From Parahoeflea alexandrii (GTDB lineage: Bacteria; Pseudomonadota; Alphaproteobacteria; Rhizobiales; Rhizobiaceae), in the NCBI RefSeq assembly GCF_024105735.1, contig NZ_JAAAML010000001.1, forward strand, positions 434,001 through 498,000: a stretch of 64,000 nt of DNA, given 5' to 3'. The notes under the pieces are model-generated. The model was not told where the DNA came from and made no database searches. It saw only the letters and a program-made list of their open reading frames with translations. The position numbers and the translations under genes were made by a program. Below, in pieces: positions 22,865 through 49,316 of this stretch; positions within the stretch are counted from its first letter, which is position 1; each line of letters opens with the position of its first letter.

Positions 22865-22876
22865 TCTCATCTTGAA

Positions 22877-22903
22877 GACCATGGCGGGTTGTCCGCCATG
22901 GTC
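22877..22903 (+). terminator. Intercistronic hairpin after dctP
   Basis: GACCATGGCGG and CCGCCATGGTC form a perfect 11-bp stem with a 5-base loop, between the binding-protein and small-permease genes and lacking a T-run. It probably stabilises the upstream mRNA or attenuates downstream expression. Confidence 0.65.
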
Positions 22904-22935
22904 CCTTGCTTCCGGGGGTTAAGGTGCAGGACACA

Positions 22936-24731: not shown

Positions 24732-24738
24732 GGTTCCC

Positions 24739-25065: not shown

Positions 25066-25078
25066 AGGGAGACTTTTC

Positions 25079-26628: not shown

Positions 26629-28066
26629 CGAGCAAGGACTGCGCCGCTCGGAGGTCGAACAGCCGGGTCCGGGGATCGTGCACCTCGGACTGGGCGCGTT
26701 CTTTCGTGCTTTCGGGGCGATCTATGTCGACGACGCGGTCAGAATTTCGGGCGGCGACTGGGGGATCATAGGTGTCAGCCTGCAAAGCCCGGCGACACGG
26801 GACAGGCTGGCTCAGCAGGATTTTGTCTACACCGTGGTGACGCAAGGACCGGATGGAGGCGAAATCTTCCGCAAGACCGAGATCGTGCAGGATGTTCTGG
26901 TTGCGCCCGAAAGTCCCGAGGCGGTTCTGACATGGATGGCGGATCCCGCGATCCGCATCGTGACGCTGACGGTGACCGAAAAGGGCTACTGCCACGATCC
27001 GGCAACGGGCAATCTGAATTTCGGACATCCCGACATCGTCCATGATCTGGGCAATCCTCTGCCGAAGTCCGCGCCGGGCTTTCTGGTCCGGGCGCTGCAG
27101 CGGCGGCGCGATGCCGGGCGACCGCCGTTTACGGTGCTGACCTGCGACAATCTTCCGGAGAATGGCAGGCTGGTCCGCCGTGCGGTGCTGGATCTTGCCG
27201 GCCGGATCGATCCGGCGCTTGCCGGGTGGATTGCCGCCGAGGGCCGGTTTCCCGCGACGATGGTCGACCGGATCACGCCAGCGACGAAGCCCGAGGATAT
27301 CGATCGGCTGGCGCAGAAAATCGGCTACCGGGACGAAGCGCCGGTGATGTGCGAACCGTTCCGGCAATGGGTGGTGGAGGATGATTTCGTTCCTGCATAC
27401 GGGACCCACGCCCGCCCTGACCTGGCCGCCGCGGGCGCCGAGATGGTGGCGGATGTCACGCCTTATGAAAACATGAAGCTCCGGATGCTCAACGGAACGC
27501 ATTCCTCGCTTGCGTATCTCGGATACCTGGCAGGCCACGAGACCATCGCCGAGACCGTGGCGGATCCGGTTTTCGCCGCGTTCGTCAAGCGGCTGTGGCG
27601 GCAGGAGATCATGCCGTCCTTCACACCGCCCGAGGGTGTTGATCTCGAAGCCTATGCGGACGCGCTCTTCGAGCGCTATTCGAACCCCGCCATCCGTCAC
27701 CGGACCTGGCAGATCGCTATGGATGGCAGCCAGAAACTGCCGCAGCGGATCCTGGGTACGATCTCCGACAATCTTGATGCGGGCAGAGCCTGCCCGGGTC
27801 TGATGCTGGCTGTCGCCGGCTGGATGCGTTACGTCGGCGGAATCGACGAGAAAGGCCAGCCGATCGAGGTCAAGGACCCGCTGGCGGCCCAGTTGCGCGC
27901 GCTCTCTGATGCGGCGCAGACGGCGGATGAGAAAGTTGCCGCGCTGCTTGGTTGCCGCGATGTGTTCAGTGCGCGCCTCGCCCTTGATTTGGTTGGGCCC
28001 GTAACCAGCGCTTATGAAACCTTGGCCGCACAGGGTGCCCGCAAGGCTGTCGGAGGTGTCCGGTGA
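26618..28066 (+). CDS. uxuB: Fructuronate reductase (mannitol dehydrogenase family)
   Basis: A 482-residue polyol-type dehydrogenase of the mannitol dehydrogenase family. Seen are the N-terminal IVHLGLGAFFRAFGAIYVDD cofactor region, TVTEKGYCHD, the catalytic-Lys region ENMKLRMLNGTHSSLAYLG (about residues 286-304) and the C-terminal substrate domain. In this operon the substrate should be D-fructuronate, reduced to D-mannonate. The likely start is TTG with GGAGG upstream, overlapping kduD by 11 bases. Confidence 0.88.
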   Translation: MRADEQGLRRSEVEQPGPGIVHLGLGAFFRAFGAIYVDDAVRISGGDWGIIGVSLQSPATRDRLAQQDFVYTVVTQGPDGGEIFRKTEIVQDVLVAPESPEAVLTWMADPAIRIVTLTVTEKGYCHDPATGNLNFGHPDIVHDLGNPLPKSAPGFLVRALQRRRDAGRPPFTVLTCDNLPENGRLVRRAVLDLAGRIDPALAGWIAAEGRFPATMVDRITPATKPEDIDRLAQKIGYRDEAPVMCEPFRQWVVEDDFVPAYGTHARPDLAAAGAEMVADVTPYENMKLRMLNGTHSSLAYLGYLAGHETIAETVADPVFAAFVKRLWRQEIMPSFTPPEGVDLEAYADALFERYSNPAIRHRTWQIAMDGSQKLPQRILGTISDNLDAGRACPGLMLAVAGWMRYVGGIDEKGQPIEVKDPLAAQLRALSDAAQTADEKVAALLGCRDVFSARLALDLVGPVTSAYETLAAQGARKAVGGVR

Positions 28067-29256
28067 AGGAAAGCTGGCGCTGGTACGGCCCACTCGACAA
28101 GATCTCGCTTGGTGAAATTGCGCAGACGGGCGCCAACGGCATCGTCACGGCTTTGCACGAAGTTCCCTATGGCGAGGTCTGGAGCCGCGAGACGATCGCC
28201 GCGCGGAAGGCAGAGATCGAGGCCGCCGGCTTTGACTGGGTGGTGGTTGAAAGTCTGCCGATCCATGAACGGATCAAACGCGGCGAGGGGGACCTGTCTG
28301 CGCTGTTTGCAAATTACCGGCAGTCGATGGCCAACCTGGCGGCGGAGGGTATCCACACGATCTGCTACAATTTCATGCCGCTGCTTGACTGGACCCGCAC
28401 GGACCTTGCCGCGCCTGTCGACCGGGGCGGAAGCTGCCTGCGTTTCTCGGCACCGAGAATGGCGGCGCTGGAGATCTTCATGCTTGGACGGGACGCGGCG
28501 CGGCGGGATTATCTGCCGGAGGTCGTCGCGCAGGCGGAGAGCTGGTTTCAAGCCTCCTCCGACGATGAGCGCGCCGGGTTGATGCACGCGGTGATGGCCG
28601 GGCTGCCGGGCGCCTATGACCGATATGATGCCGACGGGCTGAGGACGGCCCTGAAGCTCTATGAAGGGATCGACCGCGCGGTGTTGCGGAGCCATTTCAA
28701 GCGGTTTCTGGAAGAGGTGATCCCGACCGCCGAAGAATTGGGCATGCGGTTCTGCGTGCATCCGGACGATCCGCCGCGCGATATCCTGGGGCTACCGCGC
28801 ATCGTTTCAAATGCCGATGACATCGCCTGGATTCTGGGGGCGGTCGACAGTTCCGCCAACGGGCTGACGCTGTGCGCGGGGTCGCTCGGCGCCAACCCGA
28901 AGAACAATGTGCCGGCGATCGCCCGGCGGTTTGCGGACCGGATTCACTTCGCCCATCTGCGCAATGTCCGCAAGGATGCGGACGGGTCCTTCGAGGAGGC
29001 GGCGCATCTGAGTGGCGACACCGACATGGTGGATCTGGTTGCGGCATTGCTCGAAGAAGAGGGCCGCCGCCGCGATGCCGGCAGAGCCGACTGCGAGATC
29101 CCGTTCCGGCCGGATCATGGCCACGAGCTTCTCGATGATGCAAGCCGGAACACCCATCCGGGCTATCCGCTGATCGGACGGATGCGTGGACTGGCAGAGT
29201 TGCGCGGCGTCATTGCCGGCCTGTCATATGGCAGACATCAACACCAGCAGCGCTGA
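28063..29256 (+). CDS. uxuA: Mannonate dehydratase
   Basis: A 397-residue UxuA that dehydrates D-mannonate to KDG. The N-terminal WRWYGPLDKISLGEIAQTGA, CYNFMPLLDWTRTDL, RFCVHPDDPPRDILGLPRI and the C-terminal PFRPDHGHELLDD metal and substrate motifs are all intact. It starts with GTG overlapping the uxuB stop by four bases. With uxaC and uxuB it completes glucuronate to KDG, which kdgK phosphorylates. It is the last gene of the operon. Confidence 0.94.
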   Translation: MKESWRWYGPLDKISLGEIAQTGANGIVTALHEVPYGEVWSRETIAARKAEIEAAGFDWVVVESLPIHERIKRGEGDLSALFANYRQSMANLAAEGIHTICYNFMPLLDWTRTDLAAPVDRGGSCLRFSAPRMAALEIFMLGRDAARRDYLPEVVAQAESWFQASSDDERAGLMHAVMAGLPGAYDRYDADGLRTALKLYEGIDRAVLRSHFKRFLEEVIPTAEELGMRFCVHPDDPPRDILGLPRIVSNADDIAWILGAVDSSANGLTLCAGSLGANPKNNVPAIARRFADRIHFAHLRNVRKDADGSFEEAAHLSGDTDMVDLVAALLEEEGRRRDAGRADCEIPFRPDHGHELLDDASRNTHPGYPLIGRMRGLAELRGVIAGLSYGRHQHQQR

Positions 29257-30438: not shown

Positions 30439-31992
30439 ATGATGAACTTCAAGAAAATCATGCTGTTTGCGATAGCGGCGACCGGCATGGCAAGCACCGC
30501 CAATGCCCAGGAAGCGATGACCATCGACCAGAAGGTCAACGACATCTTCGCCACGGTCACCGGCCCGTTTGTCAGTTTCATCTTTGCACCGCTTCCGGGA
30601 ACGGCGTTTCCGTGGATCGTCATGTGGCTGGTCATCGCCGCGTCGGTCTTCACGCTTTACTTCGGGTTCGTGCAGTTCCGCTTCTTCGGCCATGCCATCG
30701 GGCTGGTGAAGGGCGACTATTCGGATCCCAATGATGCAGGTGAAGTCAGCCACTTCCAGGCGCTGGCGACCGCGCTTTCAGGCACGGTGGGGCTCGGCAA
30801 TATCGCCGGCGTCGCGGTTGCCGTCGGCATCGGCGGGCCCGGCGCGACGTTCTGGATGATCCTTGCCGGATTGCTCGGAATGGCATCCAAGTTCACCGAG
30901 TGCACGCTCGGGGTCAAGTATCGCAACGAGTATGAGGACGGCACGGTTTCGGGCGGTCCGATGTACTATATCTCCAAGGGTTTCAGCGAGTTGGGTCTCC
31001 CCGGCGGCAAGATCCTCGCGGTGCTGTTTTCGATCTTCTGCATTCTCGGTGCGTTCGGTGGCGGCAACATGTTCCAGGCCAACCAGGCGCATGCGCAGAT
31101 TTCGGGCATTGTCGGCGACTATCCGGGCTGGATAACCGGGCTGGTGTTTGCGGCGGTTGTGTTCGCGGTGATTGTCGGTGGCATCAAGTCGATTGCAAAT
31201 GTGACCGAGAAGATCGTGCCGTTCATGGGCATTCTCTATGTCGGCGCGGCACTGATCATCCTGCTGGTGAACTATGACAAGATCGGCTGGGCGTTCGGCC
31301 AGATCTTTGCCGGCGCGTTTACGGGACTGGGTGTGGCGGGTGGTTTCGTCGGCGCGCTTATCCAGGGCTTCAAGCGGGCGGCGTTCTCCAACGAGGCCGG
31401 TGTCGGGTCTGCGGCGATCGCCCACTCGGCGGTCAGAACCAAGGAGCCGATCACCGAAGGCTTCGTGTCCTTGCTCGAGCCGCTCATCGATACGGTGGTG
31501 ATCTGCACGATGACCGCGCTGGTCATCACCATCTCGCAGCAGCTGATCGTCGATCCGGCGACCGGGCTCTACCAGCTCAACGAAGCCGGGTCCGCAATCG
31601 CCACCGTGGGGGATGTGAGCGGCGTGGCCCTGACGTCGGCGGCCTTCGGTTCGGCCATCAGCTGGTTCCCCTACGTGCTGGCCATCGCAGTGGTGCTGTT
31701 TGCATTCTCGACGATGATCTCCTGGTCCTATTACGGGCTGAAGAGCTGGACCTACCTGTTCGGGGAAGGCAAGAACTCGGAGCTGACCTTCAAGATCATC
31801 TTCTGCGTGTTCATTGTCATCGGGGCTGCAGCCAGCCTTGGGCCGGTCATCGACTTCTCCGATGCGGCGATCTTTGCCATGGCCGTGGTCAACATCTTCT
31901 GCCTCTACTTCCTGATGGGCCTGGTGAAAAAGGAACTGCGTTCCTATGCCTCACGGCTGAGCGCAGGCGAGATCAAGAAGTTCAAGCACTAG
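30439..31992 (+). CDS. AGCS alanine/glycine:cation symporter
   Basis: A 517-residue inner-membrane transporter of the AGCS (DagA/AlsT) family with an N-terminal signal-like segment (residues 1-23) and about eleven further hydrophobic segments. Family motifs are FQALATALSGTVGLGNIAGV, GPGATFWM, GGPMYYISKG and FKRAAFSNEAGVGSAAIAHS. It imports alanine, glycine or related small amino acids with Na+ or H+. It is co-transcribed with the Usp gene, opposite the Lrp-type regulator, and followed by a good terminator. Confidence 0.94.
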   Translation: MMNFKKIMLFAIAATGMASTANAQEAMTIDQKVNDIFATVTGPFVSFIFAPLPGTAFPWIVMWLVIAASVFTLYFGFVQFRFFGHAIGLVKGDYSDPNDAGEVSHFQALATALSGTVGLGNIAGVAVAVGIGGPGATFWMILAGLLGMASKFTECTLGVKYRNEYEDGTVSGGPMYYISKGFSELGLPGGKILAVLFSIFCILGAFGGGNMFQANQAHAQISGIVGDYPGWITGLVFAAVVFAVIVGGIKSIANVTEKIVPFMGILYVGAALIILLVNYDKIGWAFGQIFAGAFTGLGVAGGFVGALIQGFKRAAFSNEAGVGSAAIAHSAVRTKEPITEGFVSLLEPLIDTVVICTMTALVITISQQLIVDPATGLYQLNEAGSAIATVGDVSGVALTSAAFGSAISWFPYVLAIAVVLFAFSTMISWSYYGLKSWTYLFGEGKNSELTFKIIFCVFIVIGAAASLGPVIDFSDAAIFAMAVVNIFCLYFLMGLVKKELRSYASRLSAGEIKKFKH

Positions 31993-32809: not shown

Positions 32810-33673
32810 TCAACCCCGCCCGGGGTCGGCTGCCAGTTGCCGGCGCACGCTTTCGAGCAGTCGCCGGTGGACATGCGAATGACGGTTGCGCAGATGCATG
32901 GCGCAATAGACGCCCTGGGGGATACGCGGCGCGTCGTCGACATAGTCGAAGCCCTGCGACGCCACCATCTCGCTGGCGGATTCCTCGAGCACATAGGCCG
33001 AGCCGCCAAGCGATGAAAGCAGGCCGCAGACGGTGATGTTCTGGCCGCTCGACAGCGGCGCCTCGGCAAGATCGGCCATCATCGGGTTGTGCACCTTCTC
33101 GAAGGCCGGGGAGAAGCGTGTGAAGATATAGCTGGCTGGTTCTATCTCCGCGATCCGCCGGGCCTTGGAGCTGATCAGCCGGTAACCGACCTCGCCAATG
33201 AGTTCGTTATGAAGGTCCGGCAGGTTCTTCGGGGTGTAGAGAATGGACAGATCGAGTTCCCCAGCCAGCAGGTCGACGCTCATCTGGTTGGAGAAATCGA
33301 GATCGATGTAGAAGGCAGCCTTCGGCAGGATGGTGCGAAACCCCGCGACCCAATCGGCAATGTGGTTGGAGGCAAGGTCATGCTGGATGCCGATCCGCAT
33401 CGACTGGTCGAAATTGCCGGTGCTTGCCACCGAGCGTCGGGCCTCGTTCCACTGATGGCGCAGCGCGCGGGCATGGTCGAGCAGCCGGTGTCCGGCAGGC
33501 GTCGGCTGGGTGCCGGCGCGGCTGCGGGTGAACAGCTTCTTGCCGAGCATGGCCTCGAGCGTGTTGATCCGGGCCGACACGGTGGACTGCTTCAGGTTCA
33601 ACCGGTCCGCAGTGCGGTTGAAGCTTTTTGTCTCCATGAGATCGAGAAACGTCTCCAGCAATTCGATCTGCAT
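32810..33673 (-). CDS. LysR-family regulator
   Basis: A 287-residue LysR-type protein with the N-terminal helix-turn-helix (KSFNRTADRLNLKQSTVSAR, about residues 16-35) and a periplasmic-binding-like effector domain from about 90. GGGAGG precedes the ATG at 33673. It is divergent from the FAD/GcvT-MttB operon with a perfect 19-bp palindrome in the gap, so it most likely activates that operon in response to its substrate. Confidence 0.9.
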   Translation of the reverse strand: MQIELLETFLDLMETKSFNRTADRLNLKQSTVSARINTLEAMLGKKLFTRSRAGTQPTPAGHRLLDHARALRHQWNEARRSVASTGNFDQSMRIGIQHDLASNHIADWVAGFRTILPKAAFYIDLDFSNQMSVDLLAGELDLSILYTPKNLPDLHNELIGEVGYRLISSKARRIAEIEPASYIFTRFSPAFEKVHNPMMADLAEAPLSSGQNITVCGLLSSLGGSAYVLEESASEMVASQGFDYVDDAPRIPQGVYCAMHLRNRHSHVHRRLLESVRRQLAADPGRG

Positions 33674-33808: not shown

Positions 33809-36256
33809 GTGAGCGAGATCGCAGGGCATGCACGGGTTGTCATCATCGGTGGCGGCGTGGTTGGCGTCTCGGCGCTCTACCATCTGGCCAAGGCCGGCTG
33901 GACCGACTGTGTGCTTCTGGAAAAGAACGAGCTGACGGCTGGCTCCACCTGGCATGCGGCGGGCAATGTGCCCACATTCTCCTCCTCCTGGTCGATCATG
34001 AACATGCAGCGCTATTCGGCAGAGCTCTACCGCGGGCTGGCGGCGGCGGTCGACTACCCGATGAACTACCACGTCACCGGTTCGATCCGGCTCGGTCATT
34101 CGAAGGAGCGGCTCAGGGAGTTCCAGCGGGTGGTCGGCATGGGCCGTTACCAGGGCATGGATCTCGACATTCTCTCGCCCGGCGAGATCAAGTCACGCTA
34201 CCCCTTTGCCGAGACCCATGATCTCACCGGGGCGCTTTACGACCCCAATGATGGCGACATCGATCCGGCACAGCTGACCCAGGCGCTGGCCAAGGGAGCG
34301 CGGGATCTCGGTGCCAAGATCTACCGCTTCTGCCCGGCCACCGGCGCGCGCCGTGAAAACGACGAATGGGTGATTTCGACCGAGAAGGGCGAGATCCGCT
34401 GCGAATACGTGGTCAACGCCGCGGGCTATTATGCCCGCGAAGTCGGCAAATGGTTCGGCCGGGATGTGCCGATGATGGTGATGAGCCATCAGTACATGCT
34501 GTTTGACGAAGTGCCGGAAGTGGCCGCCTGGACGGCGGAAACCGGGCACAAGCTGCCGCTGATGCGCGATGTCGACAGCTCCTACTATCTGAGGCAGGAG
34601 AAGAACGGCTTCAACCTCGGCCCCTACGAGCGCAACTGCAAGGCCCATTGGGTCACGCCCGACGACCCGATGCCCGAGGATTTCTCGTTCCAGCTCTATC
34701 CGGACGATCTCGAGCGGCTGGAATGGTACATCAACGATGCCTGCGAGCGGGTGCCGCTGCTGGGTACGGCCGGGCTAACCAAGAACATCAACGGCCCGAT
34801 TCCCTATACGCCGGACGGCAACCCGCTGATCGGGCCGATGCCGGGCGTGCCCAATGCGTTCGAGGCCTGTGTCTTTACCTTCGGCATCTGCCAGGGTGGC
34901 GGCGCCGGCAAGGTGCTGGCCGAATGGGTGATGGAGGGCGAGACCGAGTGGGACATGTGGTCGTGCGACCCGCGCCGTTTCACCGCGTTCTGCGACCAGG
35001 ACTACACCATTGCAAAGGGTATGGAGGTCTATGGCCACGAATACGGGATGCATTTCCCGCATCATGCCTGGCCAGCGGGGCGCAACAAGAAGCTCTCGCC
35101 GGTGCATGACCGGGTGGCAGCGCTCGGTGCCCAGTTCGGCGCCTACAATGGCTGGGAGCGCGCCAACTGGTATGCGCGGCCCGGCGATGATTTGAGCGAA
35201 GAGGCGACGCAGACCTGGGCGCGCGAGGGCTCATGGTTCGGAGCGGTGCGCGATGAGTGCCTGGCGGTGCGCGACGCGGCCGGGATCCTCGATCTGCCCG
35301 GATTTTCGCGGTTCAGGGTGCAGGGACCGGGTGCGCGCGACTGGCTCAATTCGCTGATCACCGGCATGGCGCCGAAACCGGGCCGGATAGGACTTGGCTA
35401 TTTCGCCGATGCCAAGGGCCGCATCGTCACCGAGATGTCGCTGATGGCGCTGGACGAGGATTTCTTCTTCCTGATTACCGCGGCGACAGCGCAGCTGCAT
35501 GATTTTGAATGGCTGACGAAGCACCTTCCCGCGAGTTCCGGCATCGCGGTCGAGGACGTCACCGAAGCGTTCTCCTGCCAGATCCTGACCGGTCCGAAAT
35601 CACGCGAGATCCTGTTCGCCGTGACCGATGCGGATTTGAGTAAGGGTTGGCTTACACATCAGTCGGCGCAGGTCGATGGCATCTGGTGCCAGCTGGTGCG
35701 TGTGTCGTTTGCCGGTGAGCTCGGCTGGGAGATCCATTCCAAGGTCGAGGATACGCCGAAGATTTTCGATGCAGTGATGAAGGCGGGCGAACCGCATGGT
35801 CTGAAGCCCTTTGGCATGTTCGCGCTCAATTCGCTCAGGCTCGAGAAGGGCTACCGCGCCTGGAAGGGCGATCTTTCGACCGATTACACCGTGCTGCAGG
35901 GCGGCCTCGATCGCTTCGTCAAATGGGACAAGCCGGAGTTCCTCGGCAAGCCGGCGCTTGAGGCCGAAAGGCAGCAGGGTGTCTCCAAGCGGTTCGTCAC
36001 GCTGATCATCGAGGCCGGGGACTGCGACGCGCCCTACATGTCGACGCTGTGGCATGACGGCATTGTGGTGGGCGAAACCACGTCGGGCGGCTGGGGGCAC
36101 CGGATCGGCAAATCGATCGCACTCGGCATGGTGCGGGCAGACCTGGCCGAGCCAGGAACACGGCTCGAAGTCGAGATCTTCGGCGAACGCTTTGCCGCCA
36201 CGGTGCAGGCGGATCAGCCGCTGTGGGATCCCAACAACGAAAGACTGCGGGCATGA
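33809..36256 (+). CDS. FAD-dependent demethylase with GcvT domain (DMGDH-like), paralogue 1
   Basis: An 815-residue two-domain enzyme. The N-terminal DAO-type FAD domain (about residues 8-370) has VVIIGGGVVGVSALYHL and GSTWHAAG, the latter equivalent to the region holding the covalently flavinylated His in dimethylglycine and sarcosine dehydrogenases. The C-terminal part (about 430-810) is a GcvT/aminomethyltransferase fold that passes one-carbon units to tetrahydrofolate. The reaction is probably oxidative N-demethylation. It is first in an operon of five and overlaps its paralogue by four bases. The substrate is unknown. Confidence 0.85.
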   Translation: MSEIAGHARVVIIGGGVVGVSALYHLAKAGWTDCVLLEKNELTAGSTWHAAGNVPTFSSSWSIMNMQRYSAELYRGLAAAVDYPMNYHVTGSIRLGHSKERLREFQRVVGMGRYQGMDLDILSPGEIKSRYPFAETHDLTGALYDPNDGDIDPAQLTQALAKGARDLGAKIYRFCPATGARRENDEWVISTEKGEIRCEYVVNAAGYYAREVGKWFGRDVPMMVMSHQYMLFDEVPEVAAWTAETGHKLPLMRDVDSSYYLRQEKNGFNLGPYERNCKAHWVTPDDPMPEDFSFQLYPDDLERLEWYINDACERVPLLGTAGLTKNINGPIPYTPDGNPLIGPMPGVPNAFEACVFTFGICQGGGAGKVLAEWVMEGETEWDMWSCDPRRFTAFCDQDYTIAKGMEVYGHEYGMHFPHHAWPAGRNKKLSPVHDRVAALGAQFGAYNGWERANWYARPGDDLSEEATQTWAREGSWFGAVRDECLAVRDAAGILDLPGFSRFRVQGPGARDWLNSLITGMAPKPGRIGLGYFADAKGRIVTEMSLMALDEDFFFLITAATAQLHDFEWLTKHLPASSGIAVEDVTEAFSCQILTGPKSREILFAVTDADLSKGWLTHQSAQVDGIWCQLVRVSFAGELGWEIHSKVEDTPKIFDAVMKAGEPHGLKPFGMFALNSLRLEKGYRAWKGDLSTDYTVLQGGLDRFVKWDKPEFLGKPALEAERQQGVSKRFVTLIIEAGDCDAPYMSTLWHDGIVVGETTSGGWGHRIGKSIALGMVRADLAEPGTRLEVEIFGERFAATVQADQPLWDPNNERLRA

Positions 36257-38700
36257 GTGTGACAGTTCCTGAGAAGGCCCGCGTGGTCATCGTCGGCGGC
36301 GGCGTGTCCGGCTGCTCGGTGGCCTATCACCTGGCCAAGCTCGGCTGGCGCGACATCGTGCTCCTGGAACGCAAGCAGCTGACCTGCGGCACCACCTGGC
36401 ATGCTGCAGGCCTGATCGGGCAGTTGCGGGCTTCGCTCAACATGACACGGCTCGCCAAGTACTCGGCCGATCTCTACGTCAAGCTCGAGGCGGAAACCGG
36501 TGTCGCCACCGGCATGCGGCAATGCGGGTCGATCACCGTGGCGCTGACGGAAGCGCGCAAGGAGGAGATCTTTCGCCAGGCGTCGCTGGCGCGGGCGTTC
36601 GACATCGACGTGCAGGAAATCAGCCCCGACGAGGTGCTGAAGATGTATCCGCATCTCAATATTTCCGACGTCACCGCCGCGGTTCACCTGCCGCTCGACG
36701 GGCAATGCGATCCGGCCAACATCGCCATGGCGCTGGCCAAGGGCGCGCGCCAGAACGGGGCGCGCATCATCGAGGGGGTGAAGGTCACTTCGGTCAACAG
36801 CGCAGGGGGCAAGGTCACCGGTGTCAATTGGCAGCAGGGAGAAGAGGCGGGCACAATTGACGCCGATATCGTGGTCAATTGCGGCGGCATGTGGGGGCGC
36901 GATCTCGCCGCCCAATCCGGCGTGACGCTGCCGCTGCATGCCTGCGAGCATTTCTACATTGTCACCGAGGCGATCGAGGGTCTGCCGCGGCTGCCGGTGC
37001 TGCGGGTGCCGGACGAATGCGCCTACTACAAGGAAGACGCCGGCAAGATGCTGCTCGGCGCCTTCGAACCGGTCGCCAAGCCCTGGGGCATGAACGGAAT
37101 CAGCGAGGATTTTTGCTTCGACCAGCTGCCCGAGGATTTCGATCACTTCGAGCCGATCCTCGAACAGGCGGTGAACCGGCTGCCGCTTCTCGCCACGGCC
37201 GGAATCCACACCTTCTTCAACGGGCCGGAGAGCTTCACGCCGGACGACCGTTACTATCTCGGCGAAGCGCCGGAGATCAAAGGCTACTGGGTCGCCGCCG
37301 GCTACAATTCCATCGGCATCGTCTCCTCGGGTGGCGCAGGCTTTGCGCTGGCGCAATGGATGAATGACGGCGAACCGCCGTTCGATCTGTGGGAAGTCGA
37401 TATCCGCCGGGCACAGCCGTTCCAGAAGAACCGGCATTATTTGCAGAGCCGCGTCACCGAAACGCTCGGCCTGCTTTACGCCGATCACTACCCATACCGG
37501 CAGATGGCGACGGCGCGCGGTGTTCGGCGCTCGCCGATCCATGAGCAATTGAAGGCGCGCGGTGCGGTGTTCGGAGAAGTCGCCGGCTGGGAGCGGGCCA
37601 ACTGGTTCGCGGATGAAGGGCAGGCGCGGGAGTACCAGTACTCCTGGAAGCGGCAGAACTGGTTCGAGAACCAGAAGCGCGAGCATCTGGCGGTGCGCGA
37701 GGCGGTCGGGCTGTTCGACATGACCTCGTTCGGCAAGATCCGGGTCGAGGGGCGGGATGCGGCTGCCTATCTGCAACGGCTCTGCGCCAACGACATGGAT
37801 GTCGAGCCGGGGCGGATCGTCTACACCCAGATGCTCAACACAAGAGGCGGCATCGAGTGCGACCTGACCGTGACGCGGTTGTCGGAGACGGCGTTCCTGC
37901 TGGTGGTGCCGGGCGCGACGCTGCAGCGTGATCTCAGCTGGCTCCGGCGGCACCTCGGCGACGAGTTCGTGGTGATCACCGACATCACGGCTGCGGAATC
38001 CGTACTCTGCGTGATGGGGCCGAATGCCCGGTCTCTGCTCCAGGCGGTCAGCCCGAATGATTTTTCCAACGAGGCGCATCCGTTCGGTACTGCGCGCGAG
38101 ATCGAGATCGGCATGGGGCTCGCCCGTGCGCACCGGGTCACCTATGTCGGCGAACTGGGCTGGGAGCTCTATGTCTCCAGCGACCAGACCGCGCATGTGT
38201 TCGAGGCGCTGGCTGACGCGGGAAGCGGTCACGGGCTCAAGCTCTGCGGGTTGCACACGCTCGATTCCTGCCGGATCGAAAAGGCGTTCCGGCATTTCGG
38301 CCATGACATCACCGACGAGGACCACGTGCTCGAGGCCGGGCTCGGCTTCGCGGTAAAGACCAAGAAGGGCGCCTTTATCGGCCGCGACGCGGTGCTTTCC
38401 AAGCGCGAGCAGGGGCTTGCCCGGAGGCTGGTGCAATTCCAGCTCAAGAATCCCGAACCGCTGCTGTTCCACAACGAGGTGATCGTGCGCGACGGCGAGA
38501 TCGTTTCAATCATCACCTCGGGCAATTACGGCCACCATCTCGGCGGCGCCATCGGGCTCGGCTACGTGCCGTGCGCGGGCGAGAGCGCCGAGGATGTGCT
38601 CGCCTCAACCTACGAAATCGAGATAGCCGGGGAACGCCATTCCGCGATCGCTTCCCTCAAGCCTTTGTACGACCCCGGCGCGCTCCGCGTCCGGATGTGA
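36253..38700 (+). CDS. FAD-dependent demethylase with GcvT domain (DMGDH-like), paralogue 2
   Basis: A second 815-residue FAD/GcvT protein, the same length as the one before it but clearly diverged. The FAD motif is VVIVGGGVSGCSVAYHL, then CGTTWHAAGLIGQLRAS; the GcvT part includes ARAHRVTYVGELGWELYVSS and the C-terminal GYVPC region. Two dehydrogenases in series suggest stepwise removal of methyl groups, or two related substrates. ATG overlaps the upstream stop (ATGA). Confidence 0.85.
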   Translation: MSVTVPEKARVVIVGGGVSGCSVAYHLAKLGWRDIVLLERKQLTCGTTWHAAGLIGQLRASLNMTRLAKYSADLYVKLEAETGVATGMRQCGSITVALTEARKEEIFRQASLARAFDIDVQEISPDEVLKMYPHLNISDVTAAVHLPLDGQCDPANIAMALAKGARQNGARIIEGVKVTSVNSAGGKVTGVNWQQGEEAGTIDADIVVNCGGMWGRDLAAQSGVTLPLHACEHFYIVTEAIEGLPRLPVLRVPDECAYYKEDAGKMLLGAFEPVAKPWGMNGISEDFCFDQLPEDFDHFEPILEQAVNRLPLLATAGIHTFFNGPESFTPDDRYYLGEAPEIKGYWVAAGYNSIGIVSSGGAGFALAQWMNDGEPPFDLWEVDIRRAQPFQKNRHYLQSRVTETLGLLYADHYPYRQMATARGVRRSPIHEQLKARGAVFGEVAGWERANWFADEGQAREYQYSWKRQNWFENQKREHLAVREAVGLFDMTSFGKIRVEGRDAAAYLQRLCANDMDVEPGRIVYTQMLNTRGGIECDLTVTRLSETAFLLVVPGATLQRDLSWLRRHLGDEFVVITDITAAESVLCVMGPNARSLLQAVSPNDFSNEAHPFGTAREIEIGMGLARAHRVTYVGELGWELYVSSDQTAHVFEALADAGSGHGLKLCGLHTLDSCRIEKAFRHFGHDITDEDHVLEAGLGFAVKTKKGAFIGRDAVLSKREQGLARRLVQFQLKNPEPLLFHNEVIVRDGEIVSIITSGNYGHHLGGAIGLGYVPCAGESAEDVLASTYEIEIAGERHSAIASLKPLYDPGALRVRM

Positions 38701-38734
38701 ATTGACCTTTACTTCGGACCTCCTGGAGACCGCG

Positions 38735-40327
38735 ATGGAACCTGTAATCGAACCCGCAATTGAAACCCTGGCAGAAATGCCGATCGAACCGCCGGTTCTG
38801 GAAAGGCAGGGTCGCCGCTCGGGTGGCCGTGCCGGGCGCGTCGCCGTCAGGACGGCGCCATTGGCCGAAAACCTGAGGCCGATCCGGCCGGGCATGAGCG
38901 GCGGGCAGTATTCGCCGCTGACCGACGCCAATGTGCTTCGCATCCACGAAGCCGCACTCGATGCGCTGGAAACCATCGGCCTGTCGCAGGCTCCGCCATC
39001 GGGCGTCGAGATCATGACCAAGGCCGGGGCCATCCTCGGAGATGACGGGCGGATCCGGTTTCCGCGCGCGCTGGTCGAGGACATGCTGGCGCTGGCCAAG
39101 AAGGATCTGGTGCTGTTTGGCCGGGACCCGAAATTCGATCTCGACCTGTCGGGAACCAGGGTGCATTTCGGCACGGCAGGTGCGGCGGTGCATGTGGTCG
39201 ATATCGAGAACCGGAGCTACCGCGAATCCACCGCGCAGGATCTCTATGACGCGGCGCGGCTGACCCACGCGCTCGACAATGTGCATTTCTTCCAGCGCGC
39301 AATGGTCTGCCGTGACGTGGTCGACAATTTCGAGATGGATATCAACACGCTCTATGCGTGCTGTGCCGGAACCACCAAGCATGTCGGCACCAGCTTCTCG
39401 GATCCATCGCATTTCGAAGGCTGCATGGATCTCATTCACATGATCTCCGGCGGCGAGGAAGCCTGGCGGGCGCGTCCGTTCGTCTCCAATTCCAACTGCT
39501 TCGTGGTTCCGCCGATGAAGTTCGCGGAAGAGAGCTGCATCACGATGGAGAAATGCATTCGCGCCGGCATGCCGGTGCTGCTCTTGTCAGCCGGGCAGGC
39601 GGGTGCCACGGCGCCGGCGCCGCTCGCCACCGCGATCGTGCAGGCTGTGGCCGAATGCCTGGCGGGCGTCGTCTATGTCAACGCCATGGCGCCGGGTCAT
39701 CCGGCAGTGTTCGGCACTTGGCCCTTCGTCTCCGATCTTCGCTCGGGCGCAATGTCGGGCGGGTCGGGCGAGCAGGCGCTGCTGACGGCGGGTTGCGCCC
39801 AGATGCACCGCTTTTACGGTCTGCCCGGTGGGGCTGCGGCAGGGATTGCGGATTCCAAGCTGCCCGACATGCAGGCGGGCTGGGAGCAGGCAATCTCCAA
39901 CACGATGGCGGGTCTCAGCGGTCTCAACATGGTCTATGAAGCGGTCGGCATGCATGCCTCGCTCCTGGGCTTCTGCCTGGAATCGCTGGTGCTCGGCGAC
40001 GATCTGCTGGGCCAGGTGCTCAGATGTGTGCGCGGCATCGATGTTACCGAGGACAGCGTCAGCCTGGAAGCGATGCGGGAAGTGTGCCTGGAAGGGCCCG
40101 GACACTACCTCGGCCACCAGCAGACGCTGAGCGTGATGCAGACCGAATATGTCTACCCGGCGGTCGCCGACCGCACCAGCCCGAAGGAATGGGCTGAAAT
40201 CGGCAAGCCGGATCTGGTACAAAAGGCAATCGAGCGGAAGAATCGGATTCTTTCGCAGTCCACGGGGCCTTTGTTCGATCCTGCCACCGACGCGGCGATC
40301 CGGGCGGCCTTCAAAATCTATGTGTGA
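38735..40327 (+). CDS. MttB-family (trimethylamine methyltransferase-like) protein, non-pyrrolysine
   Basis: A 530-residue member of the MttB superfamily (PF06253), with LRPIRPGMSGGQYSPLTDAN near the N-terminus and VNAMAPGHPAVFGTWPFVSD centrally. The frame is continuous without an internal amber codon, so it belongs to the non-pyrrolysine branch, whose known members demethylate quaternary amines such as glycine betaine with a corrinoid protein. No corrinoid protein or corrinoid methyltransferase is nearby. ATG at 38735 has GGAG upstream. It is third in the operon, and the substrate is not known. Confidence 0.82.
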   Translation: MEPVIEPAIETLAEMPIEPPVLERQGRRSGGRAGRVAVRTAPLAENLRPIRPGMSGGQYSPLTDANVLRIHEAALDALETIGLSQAPPSGVEIMTKAGAILGDDGRIRFPRALVEDMLALAKKDLVLFGRDPKFDLDLSGTRVHFGTAGAAVHVVDIENRSYRESTAQDLYDAARLTHALDNVHFFQRAMVCRDVVDNFEMDINTLYACCAGTTKHVGTSFSDPSHFEGCMDLIHMISGGEEAWRARPFVSNSNCFVVPPMKFAEESCITMEKCIRAGMPVLLLSAGQAGATAPAPLATAIVQAVAECLAGVVYVNAMAPGHPAVFGTWPFVSDLRSGAMSGGSGEQALLTAGCAQMHRFYGLPGGAAAGIADSKLPDMQAGWEQAISNTMAGLSGLNMVYEAVGMHASLLGFCLESLVLGDDLLGQVLRCVRGIDVTEDSVSLEAMREVCLEGPGHYLGHQQTLSVMQTEYVYPAVADRTSPKEWAEIGKPDLVQKAIERKNRILSQSTGPLFDPATDAAIRAAFKIYV

Positions 40328-40337
40328 GGTTTGAACG

Positions 40338-41774
40338 ATGGCCGATTACGGCAATCTCGGACGGTTCTACATCAACGGCGAGTGGGTTGCTCCCTCTCAA
40401 GGCGCAACGCTGATCGACGTGATCAATCCGGCGACGGAACAGAGCGTCGCCAAGGTGCCGCTCGGCACATCCGCAGATGCGGAAAAAGCGATCGCCGCCG
40501 CGCGGGCGGCGTTCCCGGGCTTCAGCGGGTGGAGTGCTGCCGACAGGCTGGCGCTCCTGGGGCGGATCCGCGACGTCTATGAATCCCGGCTTGACGAGAT
40601 CGCGGAGGCGATCAGCACGGAAATGGGCGCGCCGCTGGCCATGGCGAAATCCGACCAGGCCTGGTCCGGACTGGGCCATATCGAGGCGACAATGACCGCG
40701 CTCAAGGCGTTCAGCTTCGAGGAACAGCGCGGTTCGACACTGATCGTGCATGAGGCCATCGGGGTTGCGGGTCTGATCACGCCGTGGAACTGGCCGATGA
40801 ACCAGATCGCCTGCAAGGTGGCGCCAGCTCTGGCGGCGGGCTGCACGGTGGTGCTCAAGCCGAGCGAGATCGCGCCATTGAGCGGCATATTGTTTGCCGA
40901 GATCCTGCACGAGGCCGGAGTGCCGGCAGGCGTGTTCAACCTGGTCAACGGCGACGGGCCGGGTGTCGGCCAGGTGCTGAGTTCCCATCCGGATATCGAC
41001 ATCGTCTCATTCACCGGATCAACACGGGCGGGAATCTTGGTGGCCAAATCCGCGGCCGATACGGTCAAGCGGGTGGCGCAGGAGCTCGGCGGCAAATCGC
41101 CCAATCTCATCCTGGCAGACGCCGACTTGGCGTCCGCAGTAGCCGGCGGCGTCGAAGGCTGTTTTGCCAACAGCGGCCAGTCCTGCGATGCGCCGACGCG
41201 GATGCTTGTGCCGCGGGAGCGGCACGACGAGGCCCTGGCCATTGCGAAAGAGACTGCGGAGAAGCTGGTGACCGGGGATCCGCGCGATCCCGCCACCAAT
41301 CTCGGACCGGTGATCAGCCAGGTCCAGTATGACAAGATCCAGGCGCTGATCGCCTCGGGCATCCAGGATGGCGCCATCCTGGTCACCGGCGGGCGAGACC
41401 GGCCGGAGGGTTTGAGCCAGGGCTACTATGTCAGGCCGACGGTGTTCGGCGGGGTGACGCCCGACATGCGGATCGCGCGCGAGGAAATCTTCGGGCCGGT
41501 GCTTTCGATCATGCCCTATGACAGCGAAGAACAAGCTGTGGAAATTGCCAACGACACGGTCTACGGGCTTGCCGCCTACGTGCAATCGGGCGAGCTTGAG
41601 CATGCGCGGGCCATCGCCCGGCAGATGCGGGCCGGCCAGGTCCACATCAACTCGCCCGATTGGGATCTGTTTGCGCCGTTCGGCGGCTACAAGCAGTCCG
41701 GCAACGGCCGCGAATATGCCGACTGGGGCATGCGCGATTACCTCGAAACCAAGGCGCTGATCGGCCACGGCTAG
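40338..41774 (+). CDS. NAD(P)-dependent aldehyde dehydrogenase
   Basis: A 478-residue aldehyde dehydrogenase with the cofactor region TPWNWPMNQIACKVAPALAA, general-base Glu in QELGGKSPN and catalytic Cys286 in SGQSCDAPTRM. It starts 10 bases after the MttB-like gene. It could oxidise an aldehyde such as betaine aldehyde, a semialdehyde or formaldehyde released by the demethylases. The substrate is inferred only from context. Confidence 0.9.
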   Translation: MADYGNLGRFYINGEWVAPSQGATLIDVINPATEQSVAKVPLGTSADAEKAIAAARAAFPGFSGWSAADRLALLGRIRDVYESRLDEIAEAISTEMGAPLAMAKSDQAWSGLGHIEATMTALKAFSFEEQRGSTLIVHEAIGVAGLITPWNWPMNQIACKVAPALAAGCTVVLKPSEIAPLSGILFAEILHEAGVPAGVFNLVNGDGPGVGQVLSSHPDIDIVSFTGSTRAGILVAKSAADTVKRVAQELGGKSPNLILADADLASAVAGGVEGCFANSGQSCDAPTRMLVPRERHDEALAIAKETAEKLVTGDPRDPATNLGPVISQVQYDKIQALIASGIQDGAILVTGGRDRPEGLSQGYYVRPTVFGGVTPDMRIAREEIFGPVLSIMPYDSEEQAVEIANDTVYGLAAYVQSGELEHARAIARQMRAGQVHINSPDWDLFAPFGGYKQSGNGREYADWGMRDYLETKALIGHG

Positions 41775-41819
41775 GGCGGCTTATCCCCTCATCTCACACA
41801 AATTCTCAGGAGTATCACC

Positions 41820-42719
41820 ATGCGCTATGGTTTCATCGGCTTGGGCAATCTTGGCGGGCATCTGGCGGTGAGCCTGCTCAAGGCAGGCTTCAAGGTCACG
41901 GTCAACGATCTCGATCCATCGCTCGGCAAGCGCCATGTCGAGATGGGCGGCGTCTGGGCGGACAGCCCGGCGGATCTGGCGCGCGACTGCGACGCCATTG
42001 TCACCTGCCTGCCGTCGCCGGCGGTGTCAGAAAAGGTTCTCGGGGAGGTGCTGACCACCGCAAAATCCGGCGCCACCTGGATCGAGATGTCGACGCTCGG
42101 CCGGGACGAGATCCTGCGGCTCGGCGCAATCGCCGCCGAAAAGGGTGTTCGCACCATGGAACTGCCAGTGACCGGCGGGGTGCACCTGGCAGCGCAGGGC
42201 CAGATCACCATGCTGGCGGGCGGCGACAAGGACCTGTTCGATCTGCACCTGCCGGCGCTCGAAGCAATGGGCAACCAGATCTTCCACATGGGGCCGCTCG
42301 GCAATTCCTCGATCATCAAGGTGATCACCAACATGCTGGCCTTTATTCATCTGAAGGCCTGCGGTGAGGCGCTGATGCTGGCCAAGCGCGGTGGCCTCGA
42401 CCTCGGCCAGGCCTGGGCGGCGATCAAGGCATCGTCGGGCAATTCCTTCGTGCACGAGACCGAGGGTGCGCTGATCCTGAACGGTTCCTACGATATTGCC
42501 TTCAACATCGACCTTGCGCTCAAGGATCTCGGCTTCGCCATGGAGTTCGGACGGGAATTCGGGGTGCCGCTGGAACTCGCCTCGATGACCGAGCAGACCT
42601 ATGTCGAAGCCAAGGCGGCCTATGGCGGAAACGCCCAGTCGCCGATGATCGCCAAGTTGCTCGAAGACCGTCTGGGCACCGATCTGCGCGCGCCGGGGTT
42701 TCCCGCCAAACTGGAATAG
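41820..42719 (+). CDS. 3-hydroxyisobutyrate dehydrogenase-like beta-hydroxyacid dehydrogenase
   Basis: A 299-residue NAD(P)-dependent beta-hydroxyacid dehydrogenase: N-terminal Rossmann motif GFIGLGNLGGHLA (about residues 4-16), substrate-type motif LPVTGGVHLAAQGQITMLAG (about 115-134) and the catalytic-Lys helix SSIIKVITNML. It follows the aldehyde dehydrogenase by 45 bases and is probably the last gene of the operon. With that enzyme it would interconvert a hydroxyacid or alcohol and semialdehyde from the amine substrate's carbon skeleton. Confidence 0.85.
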   Translation: MRYGFIGLGNLGGHLAVSLLKAGFKVTVNDLDPSLGKRHVEMGGVWADSPADLARDCDAIVTCLPSPAVSEKVLGEVLTTAKSGATWIEMSTLGRDEILRLGAIAAEKGVRTMELPVTGGVHLAAQGQITMLAGGDKDLFDLHLPALEAMGNQIFHMGPLGNSSIIKVITNMLAFIHLKACGEALMLAKRGGLDLGQAWAAIKASSGNSFVHETEGALILNGSYDIAFNIDLALKDLGFAMEFGREFGVPLELASMTEQTYVEAKAAYGGNAQSPMIAKLLEDRLGTDLRAPGFPAKLE

Positions 42720-46976: not shown

Positions 46977-49316
46977 ATGACGGATCGTCTGGCCGGAACA
47001 GAAAGCAATTTGCAGACACCGTCAGGCTGTCCGGTCCACGCCGCTCCAGGCGGATGCCCGGTCTCGACGCAGGCGCAGGCTTTCGATCCGTTTGCCGCCG
47101 AGTACCTGGCGAACCCGGCCGCGGCGCTGCAATGGTCGCGGGACCAGGAGCCGGTGTTTTTCAGCCCGCAGCTCGGCTACTGGGTGGTCAGCCGCTACGA
47201 GGACGTCAAGGCGGTGTTCCGCGACAATGTCACCTTCTCGCCCTCGATCGCGCTTGAACGGGTGGTGCCGCCGAGCGACGAGGCGATGGAGACGCTCAAG
47301 CGCTACAATTACCAGATGAACCGGACCCTGGTGAACGAGGACGAGCCGGCGCACATGGAGCGGCGGCGGGCTCTGATGGAGCATTTCCTGCCCGAAAACC
47401 TGGCCGCCAAGGAAGACATGATCCGGCAACTGACACGGCAGAAGGTTGACGCCTTCGTCGATTCGGGACGGGTCGATCTGGTGGAGGCGATGCTGTGGGA
47501 GATCCCGCTCACCGTGGCGTTGCATTTTCTCGGCGTGCCGAAGGAGGACATGGATGCGCTGAAGGAATTCTCGGTTGCGCATACGGTCAACACCTGGGGC
47601 AAGCCGTCGCCGGAACAGCAGCTGAAGGTTGCCGATGCGGTCGGCCGGTTCTGGCAATATGCCGGGACCGTGCTCGAGAAGATGCGCAGGGAACCGGATG
47701 GCACCGGCTGGATGCATCATGCCATACGGATGAATGCCGAAATTCCGGAGGTGGTCACCGATTCCTACCTGCATTCGATGATGATGGCGATTATTGTCGC
47801 GGGCCATGAAACCACGTCGCTGGCAAGCACCAATGCGCTCAAGCTGCTGCTGTCGGACCGGCTGGTCTGGGAGCGGATCTGCAAGACTCCGGAGCTGATC
47901 CCGAACGCGATCGAGGAATGCCTGCGGCTCGAAGGCTCGGTGGTTGCCTGGCGCCGGCGGGCGACGCGCGACACCGAAATTGCCGGCGTGGCGATCCCTG
48001 CGGAAGCCAAGCTGCTGATCGTCAGCGCCTCGGCCAATCATGATTCCCGGCATTTCGAGAATGGCGATTTCCTCGACATCTACCGCGACAGCGCCGCCGA
48101 GCACCTGACCTTCGGTTACGGCAGTCACCAGTGCATGGGCAAGAATTTCGCCCGGCTGGAAATGCGGATCTTCATCGAGGAGCTTTCCCGGCGCCTGCCG
48201 CACATGCGGCTGAGCGAGGACCAGCAATTCAGCTACTTGCCAAATCTGGCCTTCCGCGGGCCGCAACAGCTCCTGGTCGAATGGGATCCGGCGCTCAATC
48301 CGGAACGGTCCGATCCGGCCCTCGTCGATCGCCGTGTCTCGTTTCCCATCGGCGCACCGTCGAGCAAGGAGATCGCACGCACCGTCCGCGTCGCCGACAT
48401 CACCGAGGCGGCAGACGGGATCAGGATCCTGCATCTGGAAGATCCGGACGGGCTTGCCCTGCCAGCCTGGAGCCCCGGTGCGCATGTCGATCTGGTCGCA
48501 GGCGAATTCTCGCGCAAGTATTCGCTTTGCGGCAATCCGTCAGACCCCGGATACACCATTGCGGTGTTGCGCGAAGATAAGGGACGCGGCGGATCACGCT
48601 TCATACATGACAAGGTCACAAAGGGCATGACGCTGCGGCTGCGCGGGCCGAAGAACTATTTCCGGCTCGAGGAGGAGGCGGACCATCACTTGCTGATCGC
48701 CGGCGGCATCGGCATCACCCCGATCATTGCCATGGCCGACCGGCTCAAGCAGCTCGGGCGGCACTACACCGTGCATTATTGCGGGCGAAAGCGTACGGCG
48801 ATGGCGTTTGCCGAACGTCTGCTTGCAGAGCATGGAGCGCGGGCGGTGCTGCATGTCTCGGAGGAGGGAAGCGGGGCCGATCTCGCGTCGATCGTCGCCG
48901 GCTGTGGCAAGAGCGGCGCCCGCATTCACGCCTGTGGTCCGGCCAGACTGCTCGATTCCCTGGGCGAGCTCTGCGCCAATCTGCCCGAGGGCACGTTGCG
49001 CAGCGAGCTGTTTGTCACCGATGCGTCCGGTGCGGCGCAGCCCGGCGATACGGCTTTCGAGATCGAACTCGAGGATTCGGATCTCAATCTTACCGTACCC
49101 GCCGGACAGACCTTGCTCGAGGTGGTCCGTGCCGCTGGCATCGACGTGCCGAGCGATTGCGAAGAGGGATTGTGCGGCAGTTGCGAGGTGCGGGTGCTTG
49201 ACGGCGGGGTCGATCATCGCGACCGGGTACTGTCGGCTTCCGAGCGTGCCGAGGGCGGGCGGATGATGGCCTGCTGCTCGCGGGCCAAGGGACAGAAGCT
49301 GCGGCTGGCGCTCTGA
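46977..49316 (+). CDS. Self-sufficient cytochrome P450, CYP116B type
   Basis: A 779-residue fusion. Residues about 1-440 are a P450 with I-helix AGHETT and haem motif FGYGSHQCMGK (Cys386). About 465-690 is a phthalate-dioxygenase-reductase-like FMN/NADPH part (RKYSLCGN, IAGGIGITPI). The C-terminus is a plant-type [2Fe-2S] ferredoxin (Cys728, Cys733, Cys736, Cys766). The N-terminal CPV-GGCPVS leader and length match P450RhF/CYP116B enzymes, which hydroxylate or dealkylate varied aromatics and alkanes without a separate redox partner. GGAG lies upstream of the ATG. The natural substrate is unknown. Confidence 0.95.
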   Translation: MTDRLAGTESNLQTPSGCPVHAAPGGCPVSTQAQAFDPFAAEYLANPAAALQWSRDQEPVFFSPQLGYWVVSRYEDVKAVFRDNVTFSPSIALERVVPPSDEAMETLKRYNYQMNRTLVNEDEPAHMERRRALMEHFLPENLAAKEDMIRQLTRQKVDAFVDSGRVDLVEAMLWEIPLTVALHFLGVPKEDMDALKEFSVAHTVNTWGKPSPEQQLKVADAVGRFWQYAGTVLEKMRREPDGTGWMHHAIRMNAEIPEVVTDSYLHSMMMAIIVAGHETTSLASTNALKLLLSDRLVWERICKTPELIPNAIEECLRLEGSVVAWRRRATRDTEIAGVAIPAEAKLLIVSASANHDSRHFENGDFLDIYRDSAAEHLTFGYGSHQCMGKNFARLEMRIFIEELSRRLPHMRLSEDQQFSYLPNLAFRGPQQLLVEWDPALNPERSDPALVDRRVSFPIGAPSSKEIARTVRVADITEAADGIRILHLEDPDGLALPAWSPGAHVDLVAGEFSRKYSLCGNPSDPGYTIAVLREDKGRGGSRFIHDKVTKGMTLRLRGPKNYFRLEEEADHHLLIAGGIGITPIIAMADRLKQLGRHYTVHYCGRKRTAMAFAERLLAEHGARAVLHVSEEGSGADLASIVAGCGKSGARIHACGPARLLDSLGELCANLPEGTLRSELFVTDASGAAQPGDTAFEIELEDSDLNLTVPAGQTLLEVVRAAGIDVPSDCEEGLCGSCEVRVLDGGVDHRDRVLSASERAEGGRMMACCSRAKGQKLRLAL

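Follow-up and report, generated by a model that had tools for sequence, protein, structure and literature searches.

The 64,000-nucleotide stretch of the Parahoeflea alexandrii genome analysed here (the window; C1:434001-498000, in a genome of 4.9 Mb on 13 contigs) carries an operon in which two flavoenzymes of the dimethylglycine dehydrogenase (DMGDH) family, FADT1 and FADT2, are encoded immediately upstream of a methyltransferase of the MttB superfamily. Its probable role is a demethylation line that strips three N-methyl groups in succession from a trimethylammonium (betaine-type) compound: a corrinoid-dependent MttB would remove the first, and the flavoenzymes would transfer the next two onto folate. 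We favour this reading because MttB resembles MtgB, both flavoenzymes resemble DMGDH, the corrinoid protein MtgC co-occurs with this MttB across genomes, and a Rieske oxygenase is exchanged for MttB in related loci. No paper on the operon or on the MttB-Rieske exchange was found in searches of an open-access library.

The operon consists of five plus-strand genes: FADT1 (33809-36256), FADT2 (36253-38700), the MttB-superfamily gene (38702-40327, the longest open reading frame (ORF), with a TTG start), and two accessory genes for an aldehyde dehydrogenase (ALDH, 40338-41774) and a beta-hydroxyacid dehydrogenase of the 3-hydroxyisobutyrate type (HIBDH, 41820-42719). A LysR-family regulator (Pfam HTH_1 and LysR_substrate) is encoded divergently on the minus strand at about 32810-33673, just beyond the interval 33809-42719 covered by the original prediction. 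All ORFs are present with the expected domains: DAO, FAO_M, GCV_T and GCV_T_C in both flavoenzymes, PF06253 (MTTB, 369 bits against a cut-off of 25), PF00171 (Aldedh) in ALDH, and PF03446 (NAD_binding_2) with PF14833 (NAD_binding_11) in HIBDH. The predicted arrangement of five genes in tight order opposite a LysR gene is therefore confirmed. The predicted equal length of the flavoenzymes, 815 amino acids (aa) each, holds if FADT2 starts at the ATG at 36253; its longest ORF, from the GTG at 36223, encodes 825 aa. The FADT1 and FADT2 ORFs overlap by four bases (ATGA).

We assembled an orthologue set from the best 80 of 582 MttB relatives (74-97% identity), the highest value being the comparison with MttB of Hoeflea alexandrii (L011). 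Sixty-four of the 80 loci have full flanks of at least 9.9 kb on each side; in these, genes were scored as present at identities of at least 60% for FADT1 and FADT2 and at least 55% for ALDH and HIBDH. Layouts were counted by tblastn, and neighbouring genes were called from ORF length and GC bias, a procedure that may miss or misplace genes. Both flavoenzymes were found in 50 of the 64 full-flank loci, always in the order FADT1-FADT2-MttB and on one strand (50/50), and a divergent upstream LysR gene in 57. Because of this conservation, the gene order is not a product of chance. HIBDH was present in 37 loci and ALDH in 12, and the commonest layouts were FADT1-FADT2-MttB by itself (16 loci), with HIBDH (13) and with ALDH-HIBDH (12); a single flavoenzyme occurred in two loci, and MttB-HIBDH with the flavoenzymes absent in six. 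The MttB clade was seen in Rhizobiales and Rhodobacterales.

The strongest new evidence for a demethylation module is the exchange of MttB for a Rieske oxygenase. In two loci (L132 and L131), a divergent LysR gene and FADT1-FADT2 are followed, in the place of MttB, by a gene for a 437-441-aa Rieske oxygenase, whose best curated model is glycine betaine monooxygenase (GbcA). Its scores do not reach the equivalog cut-off of 670 (259.0 bits in L131, 259.5 in L132 and 283.7 for the related protein in L119), and among solved structures it is nearest to 3n0q, to 4qup, which is named as a demethylase, and to 3vca, which we take to be Stc2. The Rieske motif C-x-H-x(n)-C-x2-H is kept in all 12 Rieske proteins examined. 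The genome of L132 (G073) has no MttB, MtgC or MtgD at E ≤ 1e-100, 1e-60 and 1e-40, respectively, and that of L131 (G345) has both MtgC and MtgD. A further locus, L144 (genome G238), holds the gene set of the window with the Rieske oxygenase replacing MttB: ALDH (on the other strand), HIBDH, FADT1 (42% identity), FADT2 (58%) and the Rieske gene (48%).

The two enzymes also occur side by side. MttB and a Rieske oxygenase (75-82% identity) share one cluster in 7 of the 64 full-flank loci (L019, L025, L027, L033, L037, L048 and L050), in two different gene orders. A crude chance estimate, which assumes one Rieske copy per 5-Mb genome and a 20-kb target, gives 0.26 expected pairings in 64 loci against the 7 seen (Poisson p about 1e-8, kinship ignored). 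L119 and L143 each have an MttB of 56-58% identity with a Rieske gene (75%) after it. No such Rieske oxygenase was found in the P. alexandrii genome at E ≤ 1e-60. The exchange supports the suggestion, already made in the original prediction, that methyl groups are removed successively from a quaternary amine by MttB and two folate-linked flavoenzymes.

Among solved structures, the window MttB matches MtgB (2qne/9yce; 199 bits, E about 1e-57), and 21 columns are invariant in a 68-row alignment that includes the window protein, among them D389, Q391, E395 and N409. The predicted non-pyrrolysine nature of the enzyme holds, as the reading frame has no TAG. Lack of an in-frame TAG, together with a score of 335.6 bits, below the equivalog cut-off of 525, for the pyrrolysine-type trimethylamine methyltransferase model TIGR02369, rules out a pyrrolysine MttB. 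Ile382 aligns with Pyl334 of the methanogen MttB, where MtgB has Leu, and Tyr412 and Gly160 match Tyr364 and Gly110 of the methanogen enzyme, residues that have a part in pyrrolysine activation according to PMC9842639. The P. alexandrii genome encodes four PF06253 proteins, and the window MttB is 24-27% identical to the other three (L001-L003), which belong to the MtgB group. In a maximum-likelihood tree, MtgB, 4yyc of Sinorhizobium meliloti, L001-L003 and six more proteins form one deep group (100/100), from which the window MttB and its relatives are excluded, although a program warning about long branches applies to this tree. The window protein thus belongs to the MttB superfamily, but by descent it is no MtgB.

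The original prediction had noted the lack of a corrinoid protein in the window, and this stands: the sole B12-binding_2 match in a whole-genome search lies at C1:985476-985694. The same search ends the idea that a corrinoid partner is missing altogether. The match belongs to an MtgC-type corrinoid protein (C1:985044-985763; PF02310 and PF02607 above their cut-offs, and 149-217 bits to five curated corrinoid-protein models, each below its own cut-off), encoded on the same contig about 0.51 Mb from the operon. Two pterin-binding proteins were found genome-wide, one of them at C1:979500-980177, so that the proposed search for corrinoid and second-methyltransferase genes yielded both an MtgC-type and an MtgD-type gene. 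The 20-kb region around mtgC (L008) encodes the MtgD-type pterin-binding protein (PF00809), a DUF1638 protein, a divergent MttB-family protein, a RamA/AcsV-like activase scoring below curated cut-offs, a MetF-type reductase with its C-terminal partner, an MtgE-like protein above the cut-off of the betaine-homocysteine S-methyltransferase model, and proteins resembling ProV, ProW and ProX of betaine-type ABC transporters. A formyltransferase-like protein is also encoded within this cluster (L008:7457-8227). In Ruegeria pomeroyi, as reported in PMC12478193, glycine betaine does not support growth of mtgC or mtgD mutants, even with methionine supplied; bacteria with both genes often hold multiple PF06253 genes, up to seven, and other methylated substrates are suggested.

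Fifty of the 80 orthologues were followed to whole genomes, and an MtgC orthologue (79-99% identity) was present in all 50. We also surveyed 297 genomes of the host's order, using E ≤ 1e-100 for the MttB group, 1e-60 for MtgC and 1e-40 for MtgD. The MttB group occurred in 42 of them and MtgC in 105, and MtgC was found in 42/42 genomes with MttB against 63/255 without it (Fisher p about 1.6e-22, kinship ignored). MtgD was present in 40 of the 42. Moreover, in three loci of one genus (L120, L121 and L122), an MttB relative of 58% identity lies 2.8-3.9 kb from mtgC, together with a DUF1638 gene. These patterns favour the alternative of a distant corrinoid protein that had been offered alongside a corrinoid-independent MttB, and from the co-occurrence we infer that MtgC is the partner of the window MttB.

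FADT1 and FADT2 look competent to oxidise N-methyl groups onto folate. The best PDB match of FADT1 is mammalian DMGDH (5l46, 578 bits), and FADT2 matches DMGDH (4p9s, 463 bits) and dimethylglycine oxidase (1pj5, 405 bits). The WHAAG histidine is retained in both, as are a His and a Tyr at the positions of His225 and Tyr259 in the Arthrobacter dimethylglycine oxidase; at the position of Asp552 of 1pj5, FADT2 has Asp and FADT1 has Glu, as does mammalian DMGDH. We take the His225 and Tyr259 positions to mark the amine site. Besides FADT1, the genome encodes three more long relatives of FADT2 (31-44% identity), one of which (L141) adjoins ProV/ProW-like genes.

In the proposed mechanism, MttB would pass the first methyl group of the quaternary nitrogen to Co(I) of the corrinoid protein, and this group would travel via MtgC and MtgD to methyl-tetrahydrofolate. 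For the latter, the L008 reductase of the MetF type may be the oxidising enzyme, in line with what PMC12478193 proposes. FADT1 and FADT2 would oxidise the second and third N-methyl groups and hand methylene groups to tetrahydrofolate, ALDH and HIBDH may act on the carbon skeleton or a precursor, and LysR would control the operon. The slot occupied by MttB would thus be the one that removes the first methyl group: MttB would do so through the corrinoid and a Rieske enzyme through oxygenation, and some loci would have the choice of both. Gene content, gene order and its conservation, the co-occurrence with MtgC and the Rieske exchange are direct observations, from which we infer the reactions, their order, the order of the two flavoenzymes and the regulation.

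Several observations weigh against this scheme. On the side of the corrinoid protein, two of the 50 MtgC matches read through one stop codon, and MtgD was not found at E ≤ 1e-40 in two MttB-bearing genomes of the order, G278 (100% complete) and G194 (61% complete). The best MttB copies in the 42 genomes reach down to 40% identity, with values of at least 76% only in P. alexandrii itself, G198, G338 and G111. MtgC may be near-universal in Rhodobacterales as part of a split methionine synthase, and co-occurrence there therefore says less. The 80 orthologue loci themselves (flanks up to 10 kb, shorter in 16) yielded no gene of the mtgC, mtgE or ramA type. Within MttB, Thr111, Gly372 and Glu225, which are corrinoid or MttC contacts in the methanogen structure (PMC9842639), are replaced by Ala, Leu and Lys in the window clade, although MtgB differs at these positions too. 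The link between MttB and the flavoenzymes is also incomplete: 12 of the 64 full-flank loci have MttB without either flavoenzyme (at 60% identity, within 10 kb), and FADT2 orthologues occur in 67 of the 297 genomes, 30 of which lack this MttB group, while five MttB genomes lack FADT2. Among 12 hand-chosen FADT2 loci outside the P. alexandrii genome, two carry the Rieske gene, three a homocysteine S-methyltransferase-like gene and seven neither. Finally, of 11 listed Rieske genes with at least 44% identity, five are near FADT2 or MttB and six (L145-L150) near neither in the stretches examined.

As to what the line degrades, a trimethylammonium compound other than glycine betaine (for example carnitine, gamma-butyrobetaine or beta-alanine betaine), whose demethylated amine would be processed by ALDH, HIBDH and other accessory enzymes, has nearly an even chance of being the substrate. 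The presence of HIBDH in 37/64 and of ALDH in 12/64 loci points this way, as do the six loci where HIBDH adjoins MttB without flavoenzymes and its persistence with the Rieske version in L144. Accessory genes vary, with a phosphoenolpyruvate (PEP)-mutase-family gene in 8/80 loci and a zinc alcohol dehydrogenase-like gene in 6/80, and sister loci add a thiamine pyrophosphate (TPP)-dependent Xsc-like enzyme with a class III aminotransferase (L104) or a D-cysteate sulfo-lyase (L107). However, the module of the window type has no conserved aminotransferase, HIBDH is absent within the flanks of 27/64 loci, and neither HIBDH nor ALDH matches a curated family that would name the substrate. Glycine betaine itself, for which the operon would be a second dedicated line to glycine with FADT1 acting on dimethylglycine and FADT2 on sarcosine, is a substantial possibility that we place well short of even. 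Three demethylations of glycine betaine give exactly glycine, with no further enzyme needed, and 16/64 loci indeed carry FADT1-FADT2-MttB alone among the scored genes, yet five of these bare loci hold an extra gene (PEP-mutase-family in L015-L018, homocysteine S-methyltransferase-like in L063), and it is hard to see what ALDH and HIBDH would do in such a route. Glycine betaine is a product of carnitine catabolism, and a carnitine 3-dehydrogenase gene is found no more than 10 kb away in L051, L056, L062 and L064, and also in L131 (the curated cut-off was applied to L051 only, and passed); these genes are about 6-10 kb away, and L051 and L062 are close relatives among the five loci. Of the curated models, glycine betaine monooxygenase fits the slot Rieske protein best, but the score is far under the cut-off (259 vs 670 bits). 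In addition, the P. alexandrii genome already has L008, where the MtgBCDE cluster is accompanied by a betaine-type ABC transporter, and L141, where a further DMGDH-like gene adjoins ProV/ProW-like genes, and a deep split divides the window MttB from MtgB.

Two further explanations would alter the scheme itself. It is unlikely that MttB acts on trimethylamine, a sulfonium or an O-methyl compound, with the flavoenzymes serving a separate substrate. The 12/64 loci with MttB but neither FADT1 nor FADT2, and the many loci that FADT2 has of its own, would fit such a division of labour; against it, order and strand are constant in all 50 full-flank loci having both flavoenzymes, the enzyme that takes the place of MttB is similar to Rieske demethylases of quaternary ammonium compounds, and the MttB gene has no pyrrolysine codon. 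Still less probable, to the point of being very improbable, is the bolder idea of the original prediction, a corrinoid-free MttB working with the flavoenzymes. In its favour are the tight linkage of MttB and the flavoenzymes and the absence of a corrinoid gene from the window, which extends to within 10 kb in relatives. The prediction itself had named a conserved corrinoid protein encoded elsewhere, always co-occurring and able to restore activity, as what would count against it; as to co-occurrence, MtgC was found alongside MttB in 50/50 and 42/42 genomes. Likewise, G073, where MtgC was not found at the cut-off, has the Rieske oxygenase instead of MttB in the slot, and MttB relatives adjoin mtgC in L120-L122. 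We set aside the corrinoid-free MttB on the co-occurrence with MtgC.

Attempts to name the substrate from neighbouring genes were abandoned. ALDH scores below the cut-off for every NCBIfam model among the 25 listed of 41 matched, betaine-aldehyde dehydrogenase being the best, and HIBDH falls below the cut-off for all eight matched models, its best PDB matches being 3pdu, 3cky and 1vpd at about 135-140 bits; with HIBDH and ALDH in no curated family, this approach was rejected. A BetA-like glucose-methanol-choline (GMC) oxidoreductase in the flanks of 8/80 loci was discarded as a clue since it is below the choline dehydrogenase cut-offs. A neighbour in loci of the Tabrizicola type is above the cystathionine gamma-lyase cut-off but names no substrate, and ProV matches among the 80 loci, which have the look of generic ABC ATPases, were disregarded.

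The module can be set beside several known systems. With the MtgBCD/MtgBCDE systems (Ruegeria pomeroyi; PMC12478193) it shares a PF06253 methyltransferase, MtgC and MtgD, and an aerobic bacterial host. In contrast to these, the window MttB belongs to another deep clade and shares its operon with two enzymes of the DMGDH family, next to a LysR gene; related loci have a Rieske oxygenase in its stead or beside it. MtcB and MtyB of Eubacterium limosum and MtgB of Desulfitobacterium hafniense are likewise non-pyrrolysine MttB-family enzymes, and demethylate quaternary amines via a corrinoid protein; these systems are from anaerobes, and the portions of the sources available describe no FAD/GcvT partners. 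FADT1 and FADT2 resemble dimethylglycine dehydrogenase and oxidase (5l46, 1pj5) in having a FAD domain fused to GcvT and the WHAAG histidine, but here two paralogues stand in one operon with MttB. The Rieske quaternary-ammonium demethylases (GbcA, 4qup, 3vca), to which the enzymes in or beside the MttB slot are related, are O2-dependent and independent of vitamin B12, unlike what is proposed for the window MttB.

The 2025 paper PMC12478193 showed that aerobic marine bacteria have a system based on the MttB family, and suggested more substrates; the present operon represents a widespread second clade. The Rieske oxygenase that replaces or joins MttB offers a direct way to approach the role of the module, and hints that oxygen and vitamin B12 are alternatives for one and the same step. 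More generally, we would tentatively propose, at somewhat short of an even chance, a plug-in design for betaine breakdown in Alphaproteobacteria in which a fixed flavoenzyme pair takes off the last two methyl groups and the first step is carried out by MttB (B12-dependent, O2-independent), by an O2-dependent Rieske oxygenase or by both. The substrates of this MttB clade would then be trimethylammonium compounds with which no MttB has so far been linked, among them sulfonated ones in the sister clusters.

One such sister cluster, a module of like kind with different enzymes downstream, is on the megaplasmid of R. pomeroyi DSS-3 (L104:9929-19249): a LysR gene is divergent from MttB, a class III aminotransferase, two FAD/GcvT enzymes and the Xsc-like TPP enzyme, and Ruegeria sp. 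THAF33 (L105) has the same layout. Taurine betaine was considered for the R. pomeroyi cluster because sulfoacetaldehyde acetyltransferase is the closest family to the TPP enzyme, and left as a lead: the TPP enzyme reaches 401 bits against a cut-off of 620, and the aminotransferase is glutamate-semialdehyde-aminomutase-like. A plasmid of Leisingera methylohalidivorans (L107:972-15762) carries MttB, one FAD/GcvT enzyme, a CuyA-type D-cysteate sulfo-lyase above its cut-off (526.9 vs 450), a histidinol-dehydrogenase-family protein, presumably HpsN-like, and a betaine-type ABC transporter; a similar gene set is found in L126:1-13304. These two clusters may serve to break down an N-methylated sulfonate, for example a betaine of the cysteate type.

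Other variations concern genes inserted in the module. A gene of the PEP-mutase/isocitrate-lyase family lies between FADT2 and MttB in Shinella-type and some other loci (L016:9136-9981, L113:8142-9011); the family is represented in 8/80 loci, plus L111 and L113, is absent from the window cluster, and hints at the carbon skeleton of the substrate. The zinc alcohol dehydrogenase-like protein of 6/80 loci is likewise an in-cluster gene absent from the window. A homocysteine S-methyltransferase-like gene is located between FADT1 and FADT2 in L024:6673-7563, L055:6629-7528, L128:6772-7707 and relatives, and perhaps provides another methyl acceptor route. In L128-L130 it stands there with an aminotransferase gene and no MttB is present, but its product was rejected as a third replacement of MttB, as relatives co-reside with MttB in 8/80 loci (L012, L013, L024, L026, L039, L053, L055 and L063). 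On pSymB of S. meliloti Ak57 (L103), the order is LysR, FADT1, FADT2, MttB; FADT2 (L103:11400-13843) spans three reading frames and has no gene-table entry, and is either a broken gene or a misread or sequencing error in that record.

Elsewhere in the window, a gene of the sodium:alanine symporter family lies upstream of the operon (30439-31992); it is near the module in L011 and L055 only among the 80 loci, and could be an uptake system in Hoeflea or unrelated. Further upstream, positions 12085-29256 hold peptide-type ABC transporter genes followed by genes of uronate/hexonate catabolism (UxaC-like, mannitol dehydrogenase family, UxuA). Downstream, at 46977-49316, a 779-aa protein combines an N-terminal cytochrome P450 with a C-terminal 2Fe-2S ferredoxin domain, a layout that we take to resemble that of self-sufficient P450s.

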